Below are positions 13,915-48,758 of a stretch of 64,000 nucleotides of DNA, piece by piece. Position numbers and translations under genes: made by a program. The DNA lies in assembly GCA_012518185.1 (NCBI GenBank), contig JAAYTA010000105.1, positions 1-64,000 of the forward strand, written 5' to 3'. This DNA is from Methanobacteriota archaeon (GTDB lineage: Archaea > Thermoplasmatota > Thermoplasmata > Methanomassiliicoccales > Methanomassiliicoccaceae). The notes beneath the pieces are model-generated. The model had not been told where the DNA came from. It ran no database searches and saw only the letters and a list, made by a program, of their open reading frames with translations. How positions within the stretch are numbered: position 1 is the stretch's first letter; every line of letters starts with the position of its first letter.

Positions 13915-14946
13915 ATGCATCAGGATCGCCACGATTATCGCGATCGGAAATATCTATCTGCAGTGGAAGCGGCAAGATTTCTAGAAACTACTGTAGAAGA
14001 AATACATCGATTAGGCCGAGAGAATCATATATTAATGCATAGGGCATCTAGCGGTCAGCAACGGTTTGACCTTGACTCATTAATTCATCTGGCAGATTCT
14101 AGCAGTCCAAATACTATATCTCGCGGTACAAGATTGAATATTGGTAAAACAGTGCAAAAAGTAATATGTGCTGATGCTTCACATATGAAAGATCTAAATG
14201 ATGAAAGTGTGCATCTTGTAGTGACCTCGCCACCATACTTCAATGCTAAAATGTACTCATCTCCATCTATTGATGGAGATCTTGGTAATGTACACTCTGT
14301 GGAAGAATGGCTTGAGCGCATAGCCTTGATATGGAAAGAAGTGTTCCGTGTCCTACAACCTGGTAGAAAGGCGTTTATAAATATAATGAATCTTCCTGTT
14401 CGATTGGGAGGAGGTTCATACAGGACGCTGAACCTCGCTGGCCGTACTATAGACTTATGTGAGGAAATAGGTTTCATATTTAAACGAGATATAGTCTGGC
14501 ATAAGACAAATGGAGTACGTGCTCCTATAGGTACATACCCTTTCCCAGGAGGAATTTTACTGAATAATATGCATGAATTTATCTTAGAGTTAGAGAAACC
14601 AATGCCGGAAAAAACCTCCAAATACTCCCACGTCACTCCTGAAGATCGAGAGGCTTCCCGCCTTGATAAAGAGTTCTGGCTAAGTATAAAGAATTCTGAT
14701 GTATGGCTCATGAATCCAGAGGGAAGTGGAGATCAGCGCGATCATGTAGCGCCCTTTCCACTCACTCTCCCGTCTCGTTTAATACGTGCGTTTAGCTACC
14801 GGCAGGAAACGATATTAGATCCATTTTGCGGCAGTGGAACCACATTAGTTGCTGCATCACGACTAGGACGAAATGGAGTAGGCTATGAGATAACTCCCGA
14901 TATCGCTTCTCACTCTATAATGCGACTCAAACAGGAAAATAAATAG
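13915..14946 (+). CDS. Orphan DNA methyltransferase with N-terminal helix-turn-helix
   Basis: A 343-residue fusion. Residues 12-60 (SAVEAARFLETTVEEIHRL and following) look like an excisionase/MerR-type HTH_17 DNA-binding domain. The rest is a permuted amino-methyltransferase: motif IV TSPPY at 104-108 comes before motif I, DPFCGSGTT, at about 302-310. TSPPY is typical of N4-cytosine enzymes, though N6-adenine activity is not excluded. The order IV then I with a target-recognition region between is the beta class. No restriction endonuclease lies next to it, so it is probably a regulatory or maintenance methylase rather than part of an R-M pair. Confidence 0.88.
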   Translation: MHQDRHDYRDRKYLSAVEAARFLETTVEEIHRLGRENHILMHRASSGQQRFDLDSLIHLADSSSPNTISRGTRLNIGKTVQKVICADASHMKDLNDESVHLVVTSPPYFNAKMYSSPSIDGDLGNVHSVEEWLERIALIWKEVFRVLQPGRKAFINIMNLPVRLGGGSYRTLNLAGRTIDLCEEIGFIFKRDIVWHKTNGVRAPIGTYPFPGGILLNNMHEFILELEKPMPEKTSKYSHVTPEDREASRLDKEFWLSIKNSDVWLMNPEGSGDQRDHVAPFPLTLPSRLIRAFSYRQETILDPFCGSGTTLVAASRLGRNGVGYEITPDIASHSIMRLKQENK

Positions 14947-17439: not shown

Positions 17440-17928
17440 TTACCAGTTATACACATGATGTCTCCATATTAATGAAGTCCCAACTATGGCAACTAGTAGC
17501 GACATAATGATTATGGCAACGTTCTGATATCCAGATAATCTGTCAGCAAAAAAGTATAGCCATATAATCACCACAGATGTCCAAACTCCCCACATAGTCG
17601 CTACAGCAGCGAATCTTCCTCTAAGGAAATGAGACTTCCAGGATTCTATTGCTGTAGGAGCATAGCGCTTACCGATTCCAATACCATAATTTATCCATAA
17701 TATTCCTATAATGATAACAGTCACTGCTAGCGATAGCAAAATAATCGCTATGTTCCTATATATAGTGAAATTATTAGCTGCTAAAAGTAGCCATAAGAAA
17801 AAGAAAATCATCCAGCCTACGCAGATAATTGCTGAGGCGTATAATCTAGATCTTAGACTGGGAGCAGGCAAATCTCCTCTGATCCAATATATCTCATTTC
17901 TATCTCTTTTCCATGGAGCCACGTTCAA
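17440..17928 (-). CDS. Unknown four-helix membrane protein
   Basis: A 162-residue protein with four clear hydrophobic segments arranged as two similar hairpins, each ending in a polar (N/R)-Y-rich stretch (AANNFTIYRNIAIILLSL and ADRLSGYQNVAIIIMSLL). The internal repetition suggests a duplicated two-helix unit. No family is recognised. Its first 29 bases overlap the end of the rhodanese gene, so the two are translated from one message. Confidence 0.7.
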   Translation of the reverse strand: MNVAPWKRDRNEIYWIRGDLPAPSLRSRLYASAIICVGWMIFFFLWLLLAANNFTIYRNIAIILLSLAVTVIIIGILWINYGIGIGKRYAPTAIESWKSHFLRGRFAAVATMWGVWTSVVIIWLYFFADRLSGYQNVAIIIMSLLVAIVGTSLIWRHHVYNW

Positions 17929-18235
17929 TTCTCCAGTGATTCAATCCTCCATCTAGTATTGAGATGTTCTTGAATCCTTTACTAGCTAGTAGATTGGCAG
18001 CCCGTCTACTTCTAACTCCTGAGCGACAATATAGTACTAGATTTTTCTCTGGATCTAATTCCCGCCATCTTTTATCAAGTTCAGATATGGACATTAAAGT
18101 GGCAAGAGGAATATGCTCTGATTCAAATTCGCGACGTTCTCTTACATCGAGCAGTATGTAATCTCCCTCCTCTATCTTATTCTCTAATACGAGAAGATCT
18201 TTAACACTTATCTGACTATGCTCTATGGTAGACAT
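17900..18235 (-). CDS. Single-domain rhodanese-like sulfurtransferase
   Basis: A 111-residue rhodanese domain. The active-site loop is YCRSGVRS with the catalytic Cys70, and LLDVRERREFESEHIP and ILDGGLNHW are the flanking CH2A-type and C-terminal signatures. Such proteins carry a persulfide and pass sulfur to acceptors. It sits in a three-gene minus-strand operon: SMC-like ATPase (46 bases upstream), this gene, and the four-helix membrane protein that overlaps it. Confidence 0.88.
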   Translation of the reverse strand: MSTIEHSQISVKDLLVLENKIEEGDYILLDVRERREFESEHIPLATLMSISELDKRWRELDPEKNLVLYCRSGVRSRRAANLLASKGFKNISILDGGLNHWRIERGSMEKR

Positions 18236-18281
18236 GTATAATCCCTACTATCATCTACTTTTTACTGCACCTACTTATTTC

Positions 18282-19124
18282 CTAACCCTTGATCTCTAAT
18301 TCTTTATCTACTCTTCCGCTGGATCTAACCTTCTCAACATCATCCTTATTAGAAAGTAGTATCACAAGCTGATATCCATCCATAAATTCCAATATGGCAT
18401 CTGCTACTTGTTCTATTATATCAGAATTCATTTTCTCAAATGGCTCATCGAGAAAAATAGGGATTCCACTGCAATTCTCTCTAGCAAAAGCAATAGCAGC
18501 AGCGAGTGTCATAGCATGACACTCCTCGATGTCAACGACTGGACCATCAAGCTCTACACTTAGCTTCCCATGCTCATCAAACATGAGGCAGGTGATGGCA
18601 GAATCGAGCATCATCGATGAGAACAAGGATGTGGCTTCCATCGACGATCGTAATTGAGCATCGTGTTTATCCCAACCTCCCATCTTCTCTATTGCCACCT
18701 CTCCACCAGCTCTATCTCCATATGCAACTCTCTCCAATGAGATTCCTGACAAAATATTGGAGTGAATACATGACAATGGAAAAAGTTCCTCCCGCTTTGC
18801 ATTAAAGTCTCCATCAGGGTAGGTTATTATATCTTCCTCAAGACCGGTTGCTGATGACAAAATAATACGCTCAAGAACAGTCTGATGAGGATCATAGAAT
18901 TTTAAGGAAACCATTGTACTTTCTCCCGCATGACGTCCTTCTAAATTCATGACTTCGTTCCATGATATATTCCCGGCCAGACACCATGCAACTGATTCTA
19001 CAATGCTCGATTTCCCCATACCTTGAGGCACTTGAATAATGTCAATACCTCCCGATAAAGGAAGTTCGACCTCACCGCGAAAGCGTCGATAATTGCGAAG
19101 CACTATACTCTGGACATATGCCAT
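18282..19124 (-). CDS. Short SMC/RecF-like ATPase without coiled coil
   Basis: A 280-residue ABC-type ATPase of the SMC/RecF/Rad50 fold. The N terminus IVLRNYRRFRGEVELPL is the classic first strand, and the P-loop is VPQGMGKSS (32-40), with valine where the first glycine of GxxGxGKS would be. Walker B is FLDEPFEKM near 224-232. There is no long coiled coil and no clear LSGG-type signature; the region before Walker B reads DIEECHAMTLAAAIAFA. The protein is about a quarter of an SMC in size. It is the first gene of the operon with rhodanese and membrane protein. Its role is unknown; a nucleic-acid-linked ATPase is the best guess. Confidence 0.72.
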   Translation of the reverse strand: MAYVQSIVLRNYRRFRGEVELPLSGGIDIIQVPQGMGKSSIVESVAWCLAGNISWNEVMNLEGRHAGESTMVSLKFYDPHQTVLERIILSSATGLEEDIITYPDGDFNAKREELFPLSCIHSNILSGISLERVAYGDRAGGEVAIEKMGGWDKHDAQLRSSMEATSLFSSMMLDSAITCLMFDEHGKLSVELDGPVVDIEECHAMTLAAAIAFARENCSGIPIFLDEPFEKMNSDIIEQVADAILEFMDGYQLVILLSNKDDVEKVRSSGRVDKELEIKG

Positions 19125-19234: not shown

Positions 19235-19396
19235 TAGTATCTATATTTTTCAAAATGATAAGCTAATATTAATCTCATGTTAGCACATTTTCCATGATTT
19301 TCACAACAGTTGACAGAAGGTGAGGGCGATCTGAGCTAACAAAACTATTTTATCAAACCTCTCTTTAGATATGCAGTACTTATTGGAGATCTCTTG

Positions 19397-20809
19397 ATGG
19401 TTGAAAAAAGGATAGATGATAGGCAACTTGCCTTTCTGGTTGACGGAGATAATGCTTCGGCAACCCTCATTGAAGACATGTTGGCGGAAGCATCCAAGTA
19501 TGGTTCAGTCATCATTCGAAGAGTATACGGAAATTGGACAGGAGGGGGCCAAGTTAATAACTGGAAGGCCAAATTGAAAGAATATGCTCTAACACCATAT
19601 CAGCAATTTCCAAACATATCAAATCGACACATTACTAAGAATGCAACTGATATCGCACTCATAATAGATGCCATGGATATACTTCATGATGGCATCGTGC
19701 AAGGATTTGTTATTGTCTCTAGCGATTCTGACTATACTTCATTAGCTATAAAGATAAGAGAGCATGGACTATTCGTTATAGGCATTGGTAGGAAAGACAC
19801 CAATGACTCTTTCCGACGTGCTTGTGATGTTTTCGTATCCACTGAAAATCTAGGAAAGGATCAGGATGAACTCGATGAAGAAGAGAAGGCAAAGGATCGT
19901 CCTAGGAGCCAACGCAAGCAACGTCCCGTTCGAGATGCACTTGAACTCTTAAACAGAGCATTCGATTCAGCAGTAAATGATGATGGAAGGGCACTTAACG
20001 GAGATATCGGAGCTGCGCTAAGACGTTTAGATCCTGGATTTGATACGCGAACTTATGGTAAACCATCGCTCCTCAATCTCATCGAAGACCTAGACGATGT
20101 ATTTGAGGTAGAGCGCTATGATCGCGGAGTCATATATGTACAGAGGAGGGGTGAGAAGAAAGAATCAATTGATACTAAGCGGACAAGCTCCTCTCCTGAT
20201 TGCATTCCTACAATGTCTCCAGAGGATGCTCTTCCACTCATAAATCGTGCATATGAGCTAGCTGATAAAACTTCAGATGGATGGGTAGATACGTTCAGAT
20301 TATTCAGAGCAGCACGTAGAATAGACTCCTCTTTTGATAGCAGCTTTTACGGTAAGGAGAAGATATCTCATCTCCTCGAAGCACTACCATCTTATTTTAC
20401 ACTCAATCGTAGGGGTAAAAGTATGATGGTTCGGCCTACTGCATGGGCAGAAGAGGAGATAATGCAGCCTCCTGAAGTCATCGAATCAGTTAGCGAAAAG
20501 AAATCATCTGATCCAGCTCCTCATGAAACCCAATTAGAACTTAGACCTATGGAAGTCGTGCGCCTAGCTACTAAGGCTTTTGAGACTGCAGTCAAAGATG
20601 ATGGTAAAGCATTCCTGCCCCAGATGAGTAAGGAATTGAAGCGCATTGCTCCCGAGATAAACTTTAAGAGCATGGGAAAGAGCGGATTGAGAGAGTTCTT
20701 GGAGGAGTATCCTGATATATTCATTCTTCATAAAAAAGGACGTAATGTATATGTAAGTAGGAGAAAAGGGCGCCGACCTGCTCGACCTATTAGCGAACTG
20801 ATTCAATAA
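19397..20809 (+). CDS. NYN-domain ribonuclease-like protein with three OST-HTH/LOTUS domains
   Basis: A 470-residue protein. Residues 8-160 form a NYN (PIN-like) domain: FLVDGDNAS with Asp16 and Asp18, NATDIALIIDAMD, and SSDSDYTSLAIKIRE supply the acidic metal-binding residues. Three LOTUS/OST-HTH domains follow (about 178-255, 276-350, 383-460), each with the pattern LxxRAF...LKRLDPxFxxxxYGKxxLxxLLE...VxVRRRG. LOTUS domains bind RNA, including G-quadruplex RNA in known cases; NYN domains cleave RNA. The charged linkers (DELDEEEKAKDRPRSQRK) are probably flexible. An RNA-processing or decay role is likely; the target is unknown. Confidence 0.88.
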   Translation: MVEKRIDDRQLAFLVDGDNASATLIEDMLAEASKYGSVIIRRVYGNWTGGGQVNNWKAKLKEYALTPYQQFPNISNRHITKNATDIALIIDAMDILHDGIVQGFVIVSSDSDYTSLAIKIREHGLFVIGIGRKDTNDSFRRACDVFVSTENLGKDQDELDEEEKAKDRPRSQRKQRPVRDALELLNRAFDSAVNDDGRALNGDIGAALRRLDPGFDTRTYGKPSLLNLIEDLDDVFEVERYDRGVIYVQRRGEKKESIDTKRTSSSPDCIPTMSPEDALPLINRAYELADKTSDGWVDTFRLFRAARRIDSSFDSSFYGKEKISHLLEALPSYFTLNRRGKSMMVRPTAWAEEEIMQPPEVIESVSEKKSSDPAPHETQLELRPMEVVRLATKAFETAVKDDGKAFLPQMSKELKRIAPEINFKSMGKSGLREFLEEYPDIFILHKKGRNVYVSRRKGRRPARPISELIQ

Positions 20810-32854: not shown

Positions 32855-33337
32855 ATGAACGCGATGACTAATAGGGCAACTTTTGGAGCAGGATGCTTCT
32901 GGGGCGTTCAAGTATCTTTTGACCGCATAGATGGAGTAATGTGTACTCAAGTTGGATACATGGGAGGTAAAGTAGAAAATCCCACTTATGAGCAAGTGTG
33001 CAGCAACCGTACAGGACATGCTGAAGTTGTAGATCTGCGATATGATCCTGATAAAGTTAGCTATCAGGATTTGTTAGAAGCGTTCTGGAATATGCATGAT
33101 CCTACTACGCTGAATAAACAAGGTCCCGATGTTGGCTCACAATATAGATCGATCATATTCTATTACGACGAGGAACAGAAAAAAGCTGCTGAGGGCATGA
33201 AGAAAAAACTCTCTAACAGCAATCGCTTTTCACGCCCTATTATGACTCAGATAGTGCCTGCAAATACATTCTGGCGAGCTGAAGAATATCATCAGAAGTA
33301 TCATCAGAAATATGGCGGAGCATGTCCTACCTGCTGA
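32855..33337 (+). CDS. msrA: Peptide methionine (S)-S-oxide reductase
   Basis: A 160-residue MsrA. The catalytic motif GCFWG (Cys14) is at the N terminus, with [26 protein letters not shown] as the family block, and C-terminal resolving cysteines in GGACPTC. It repairs S-form methionine sulfoxide with thioredoxin as reductant; thioredoxin, its reductase and MsrB are encoded at 40.9-48.8 kb. GAGGTAG lies at a normal distance before the ATG. Confidence 0.95.
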
Positions 33338-48350: not shown

Positions 48351-48758
48351 ATGCGATCATGCGATCGGAATAAGATAAAACGTTCAGATGAGGAATGGAA
48401 GCGCATTCTCACTCCAGAGCAGTTCCGCATACTTCGTCAAGATGGTACTGAACCACCTTTCCATAATAAGTACTGGGATAATCACAATAAGGGAATATAT
48501 TTATGTGCTGGATGCCAGAGTGAATTATTCTCTTCAGATACTAAATTTGAGTCGGGAACGGGATGGCCAAGCTTCTATGAGCCAATATGTGAAGGGGCTG
48601 TAGATGTCGTTGAGGATAAGCGCTTTGGAATGACTCGTGATAGTATCTCATGTGCGCGCTGCGGTGGACATCTAGGACATGTTTTCGAAGATGGTCCTCC
48701 ACCCACTGGATTGAGATATTGTATGAACTCTGGAGCCTTGGAGTTCAGAGAAAAGTAA
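48351..48758 (+). CDS. msrB: Peptide methionine (R)-S-oxide reductase
   Basis: A 135-residue MsrB. Zinc cysteines are CAGC (52, 55) and CARC (101, 104); the catalytic Cys124 lies in LRYCMNSGAL and a possible resolving cysteine at 80. TGWPSFYEPI is the substrate-binding block. It repairs R-form methionine sulfoxide with thioredoxin. MsrA is 15 kb away instead of adjacent or fused. Confidence 0.95.
   Translation: MRSCDRNKIKRSDEEWKRILTPEQFRILRQDGTEPPFHNKYWDNHNKGIYLCAGCQSELFSSDTKFESGTGWPSFYEPICEGAVDVVEDKRFGMTRDSISCARCGGHLGHVFEDGPPPTGLRYCMNSGALEFREK

Follow-up and report, generated by a model that had tools for sequence, protein, structure and literature searches.

A predicted coil-less Rad50/SMC-type head protein with degenerate catalytic motifs and its small membrane-protein neighbours in the Methanomassiliicoccaceae

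As a rule, SMC and Rad50 heads come with long coils and work on DNA; DndD, too, is an SMC-like ATPase with a long coil. The small ATPase considered here, which is encoded in the window (i.e., the whole stretch of 64,000 nucleotides that was analysed), resembles Rad50/SbcC in the sequence of its N-lobe, in its overall fold, and in its division into N and C lobes, and it has in common with the Rad50-like proteins of Thermoplasmata the motifs NYRRF and EA(I/V)xWxLxG. It differs from Rad50 in that it has neither a coiled coil nor a hook, and hence no coil base for Mre11 binding. Moreover, it lacks the first Gly of the P-loop, the Gly-Gly of the signature motif, and the His of the H-loop; its Walker B motif is often degenerate in the family, and it is more acidic.

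RecF, too, is short and has a head but no long coil, and its model (TIGR00611) gives weak matches to the N-lobe (12.5-23.4 bits). Membership of the RecF family was nevertheless rejected, since the window protein scores 12.5 bits against a cut-off of 172, and the ATPases differ from RecF in being only 280-297 aa long and in having no signature motif. The best NCBIfam match of the ATPase, again via the N-lobe, is to arcadin-4 (NF053563; 7.7e-7), and one ortholog weakly matches ASRP/coalescin, an archaeal SMC-related protein. However, arcadin-4 and ASRP are far longer (models of 747 and 593 positions) and match around 50 N-terminal residues only; assignment of the ATPase to arcadin-4 was rejected because the score is far under the cut-off. 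As for the neighbouring rhodanese, it resembles the GlpE-like rhodaneses in having a single domain with the catalytic Cys in a CRSGVR loop, and its solved relatives include thiosulfate sulfurtransferases, but it falls under every NCBIfam equivalog cut-off. A search of the literature found no paper that pairs a rhodanese with an SMC-like ATPase, and the papers available to it included none on Rad50 in this genus. The genes of the locus are as follows:

18282-19124, minus strand: predicted coil-less Rad50/SMC-type head protein (the ATPase), 280 aa (Pfam SMC_N/AAA_23, AlphaFold2 model, Foldseek)
17900-18235, minus strand: putative single-domain rhodanese, 111 aa (PF00581, 9e-22)
17440-17922, minus strand: predicted four-helix membrane protein, around 160 aa, with two helical-hairpin repeats (AlphaFold2; alignment of the halves; start chosen by homology)
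17900-17922, minus strand: overlap of the rhodanese and membrane protein genes, 23 nt (identical length in G000, G001, G002, G003, and G004)
19394-20809, plus strand: NYN nuclease-like protein with three OST-HTH/LOTUS domains (PF01936, 4.3e-30; PF12872, 4e-25)

The original prediction was of an operon comprising an SMC-type ATPase with N and C halves but no coiled coil, a rhodanese, and a four-helix membrane protein, and all three open reading frames were found where it had placed them, each on the minus strand. For the membrane protein gene, a GTG start at 17922 (MAPWKRD...) is likelier than a TTG start at 17928, as it aligns with the ATG starts of the orthologs. With this start, the overlap with the rhodanese gene, which had been noticed from the window alone, is exactly 23 nt, and it has the same length in five genomes, namely that of the window and four others. 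That these are chance open reading frames is excluded by the presence of ATPase orthologs in 12 further family genomes and by the concentration of substitutions between them at third codon positions; in the comparisons with unsaturated dS, dN/dS is far less than 1. The genes for the ATPase, the rhodanese, and the four-helix protein are probably co-transcribed.

The family models detect the ATPase at scores below their thresholds: SMC_N matches the N-lobe with an E-value of 2.5e-7 (30.8 bits, under the Pfam gathering score of 40), AAA_23 matches it with 2.4e-5 (25.5 bits, under the gathering score of 27), and the C-lobe has a weak match to SbcC_Walker_B (0.022). Profile comparison with the PDB gave Rad50 (3qf7) as the best match (E 8.6e-9). 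An AlphaFold2 model built from nine sequences has a pLDDT of 84.2 and a pTM of 0.83, and a Foldseek search with this model found the Rad50 heads 4ncj and 3qkt as the best matches (E 8.6e-14, TMq 0.71-0.76), followed by other Rad50 and SMC heads, including 5h68. The long antiparallel coiled coil with a hinge or zinc hook is absent, as judged from the ortholog lengths, which are 280-297 aa throughout, and from the model, which has no long helices. On this modelling, the ATPase is an ABC-type Rad50/SMC head composed of an N and a C lobe, with the coil simply absent, which agrees with the architecture first proposed for it. The orthologs have net charges of -12 to -22 and pI values of 4.4-5.0; most of the family's Rad50 heads are less acidic, and there is no hint in this of a DNA-binding surface.

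The sites at which the ATPase departs from a canonical head, and its two invariant cysteines, were located by alignment:

19008-19031, minus strand: equivalent of Walker A, V32-P-Q-G-M-G-K-S39, with the first Gly replaced
18981-18983, minus strand: Cys48, in the helix after the P-loop, invariant in 12/12
18768-18770, minus strand: Cys119, beside the Q-loop position, invariant in 12/12
18522-18536, minus strand: position of the ABC signature, V197-D-I-E-E201, with Gly-Gly absent
18441-18452, minus strand: end of Walker B, L225-D-E-P228, intact in the window protein and degenerate in half of the family
18348-18353, minus strand: position of the H-loop His, S258-N259, with no His

The valine that had been read in place of the first P-loop glycine is indeed there (position 32) and reflects a property of the whole family, as this residue is never Gly in the 12 aligned members. 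The rest of the Walker A consensus GxxGxGK(S/T) is kept, except that two of the 12 have Arg for Lys. The claim that there was no clear signature motif was right as well: none of the 12 has the Gly-Gly of LSGGQ/E, and none has the H-loop His. Six members, including that of the window, have LDEP at Walker B; the remaining six have LDDP (as in G010), MEDP, or MADP. A comparison within one genome illustrates the extent of these changes, since the Rad50-like protein encoded by the same genome as the ATPase has GSNGSGKT, a Q-loop FARQKEL, RFSGGE, LVLDEIFGSQD, and SHIDD, where the equivalent stretches of the ATPase are VPQGMGKS, CIHSNILSG, VVDIEE, IFLDEPFEKMNS, and LLSNKDD.

Given the known roles of the lost motifs in ABC and SMC heads, the ATPase family looks like one of nucleotide-binding pseudo-ATPases. 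The six members that combine LDEP with GxGK(S/T), the window protein among them, might include some that hydrolyse ATP. At the other extreme, G007 and G009 have both the Lys-to-Arg change in Walker A and AD in Walker B; between these two genomes, the gene has a dN of 0.08 and a dS of 0.46, which shows that it is not simply decaying. The G011 gene (L066:9186-10076, minus strand) contains one in-frame TAG, at codon 203, where its relatives have Glu or another residue. Archaea of this group encode pyrrolysine, and the codon could be read through as pyrrolysine or could mark a disabled gene. In the orthologs from Methanomassiliicoccus (L062, L064, L065, L066, L067, and L068), there is a Cys-rich stretch around CSxxWCTSDLSxRC, which is absent from the genus of the window and which is possibly a metal or redox site.

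The window's genome is one of the Methanomassiliicoccaceae, its related contigs being those of Methanomassiliicoccus sp., Methanomassiliicoccales archaeon RumEn M1, and similar organisms. Full-length orthologs were found in 13 of the 15 Methanomassiliicoccaceae genomes examined (in G002, the gene is split by a contig end), the two without it being G006 (99% complete) and G013 (67% complete). A profile of 12 orthologs was run against 350 genomes of Thermoplasmata. Matches over the entire length, with 400 bits or more, were confined to the Methanomassiliicoccaceae; outside this family, the same 350 genomes yielded no full-length ATPase, and the best matches were the N-lobes of long Rad50/SMC proteins, at 58 bits or less. 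One possible origin, by which the head would derive from the Rad50 of the Methanomassiliicoccaceae themselves, was rejected because, in a tree of N-lobes, the head forms a long branch outside the Rad50 proteins of this family; its position in the tree allows only a Rad50-like origin to be claimed.

In 13/13 genomes, the ATPase occupies one fixed position inside a long syntenic block that opens with a hydrogenase cluster; the synteny covers about 15 genes across the family, from the hydrogenase to an aldo-keto reductase. At every one of these loci, its divergent neighbour is the NYN-LOTUS gene, although some Methanomassiliicoccus and G008 have short open reading frames or a longer gap between the two. 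The NYN-LOTUS protein is much better conserved than the adjoining ATPase, with 65-82% identity across the family. The conserved block also contains, beside the hydrogenase genes, a solitary DNA methyltransferase (13915-14946, plus strand; PADLOC MTase_II, 9.8e-53), next to which no restriction enzyme was seen.

The idea that the ATPase, the rhodanese, and the four-helix protein form a unit stands in part. The trio is conserved beyond the window genome, but all three genes are adjacent at only 6 of the 13 loci. The rhodanese is at the ATPase locus in 11/13 (it is absent in G005 and G011, and lies around 0.7 kb away in G008), and G006, which has no ATPase, still carries it next to the same FAD oxidoreductase. 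The four-helix gene is at the locus in 7/13, and its family is wider than that of the ATPase: of 120 genomes of the order, 33 have a member, some of them in two other families, where the gene lies in unrelated settings. A four-helix paralog adjoins the NYN-LOTUS gene in G006, G008, and Methanomassiliicoccus; that the Methanomassiliicoccus gene is the same one moved was rejected, since a tree separates the paralogs and G008 has both.

A more constant partner is a gene that the window genome does not have. A two-helix membrane protein of 80-90 aa, with one invariant Cys, is encoded downstream in 11/13 ATPase loci, and among the 120 genomes of the order it was found in none that lacks the ATPase. 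On the strength of these two observations, the ATPase and the two-helix protein are the tightest pair at the locus. The two-helix gene is missing from the window genome, where it has been lost, and from G003; since both genomes keep the ATPase, the two-helix protein cannot be strictly required.

The rhodanese appears from its sequence to be an ordinary single-domain rhodanese, with 77.9 bits in its PF00581 match against a gathering score of 22.2. Its catalytic Cys is invariant in 11 orthologs and lies in the following loop:

18011-18028, minus strand: rhodanese active-site loop, C70-R-S-G-V-R75 (sequence and alignment)

In several Methanomassiliicoccus rhodaneses, the Gly of this loop is replaced (CRTINR, CRTTNR), which makes activity uncertain in those proteins. 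For the four-helix protein, the four helices first predicted from the window are also present in an AlphaFold2 model (pLDDT 76.8). An hhalign alignment of its two halves (E 2.5e-23) shows it to be an internal duplication of a helical hairpin, and it has the motif W(L/F)FxA...YQN. The window's protein has no Pfam family, and assignment to a known fold was rejected, as its AlphaFold model has no significant PDB match (best E 2.1).

The preferred explanation, to which we give a probability of around 0.42, mostly on the basis of anatomy, is that this is a Methanomassiliicoccaceae-specific operon with a membrane-linked, nucleotide-dependent head as scaffold or switch at its core. This core would consist of the coil-less, catalytically degenerate Rad50/SMC-type head and the small two-helix membrane protein. 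The head most likely binds nucleotide via the remaining GxGK(S/T) loop and would do so without efficient hydrolysis. It would probably serve at the membrane as a scaffold or switch that depends on nucleotide, and not as a machine that hydrolyses ATP and clamps DNA; its association with the membrane could be through the small membrane proteins. The rhodanese and the four-helix protein would be co-transcribed accessories, gained and lost separately. That a clade keeps a coil-less head under purifying selection without the hydrolysis residues points to a second use of the fold, as a scaffold without motor function, and the existence of close relatives with intact and with lost Walker residues makes the role of a head without hydrolysis directly testable.

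A rival explanation, doubtful but close behind the preferred one, is that these genes are bystanders in a family with little rearrangement, such that the transcript shared by a lineage-specific head, small membrane proteins, and a housekeeping rhodanese would not reflect any process in common. It comes so close because of the long surrounding synteny, which makes adjacency alone weak evidence for a shared function, and because of the independent behaviour of the rhodanese, which stays next to the FAD oxidoreductase in G006 and is dispensed with in G005 and G011; the occurrence of the four-helix family in unrelated contexts in two other families is in keeping with it. It accounts less well for the identical restricted distribution and locus of the ATPase and the two-helix protein, and for the exact retention of the 23-nt overlap in five genomes. 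Another possibility is a sulfur relay or redox switch, in which persulfide from the rhodanese would pass to Cys48 or Cys119 of the head, or to the Cys of the two-helix protein, and sulfide or redox conditions at the membrane would govern nucleotide binding. Cys48 and Cys119 are invariant in all 12 divergent heads, further cysteines are conserved within genus g3, and the two-helix protein and the rhodanese each have their own invariant Cys. The relay is nonetheless unlikely: G005 and G011 retain Cys48 and Cys119 without a rhodanese, some Rad50-like proteins (L117, L121) also have Cys at the Cys48 position, and the G006 rhodanese exists without the head. Less likely again is a variant in which a Rad50-type head, stripped of its coil and its catalysis, has become a membrane-linked nucleotide sensor outside chromosome biology, with its state set by rhodanese persulfidation.

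The two roles raised at the outset, sulfur transfer to DNA or RNA and defence, have little in their favour. A defence module against viruses, with an SMC-like sensor and membrane effectors, would fit the membrane proteins in the operon and the weak PADLOC matches to LmuB, PbeC, PtuA, and GajA. However, most of these matches involve a generic N-lobe, the C-lobe accounts for a few, and none is full-length; inheritance of the operon is vertical, at a single fixed locus in almost every family genome, and the ATPase had no matches in phage, plasmid, and viral-contig collections; the generic matches and the empty collections led to the rejection of this role, which is now very improbable. The most improbable reading of all is a Dnd-like sulfur modification of DNA or RNA, for which the only argument is that an SMC-type ATPase and a persulfide carrier occur together. 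It was rejected for the absence of DndC, no match to which (TIGR03183) exceeded the cut-off in any of the 15 relatives; moreover, no further Dnd-type gene was seen in the operon, and the strongly acidic head is without the long coil of DndD.

Elsewhere in the window, two genes on the plus strand, at 32855-33337 and 48351-48758, look like those of the methionine sulfoxide reductases MsrA and MsrB, in what is presumably a strict anaerobe.
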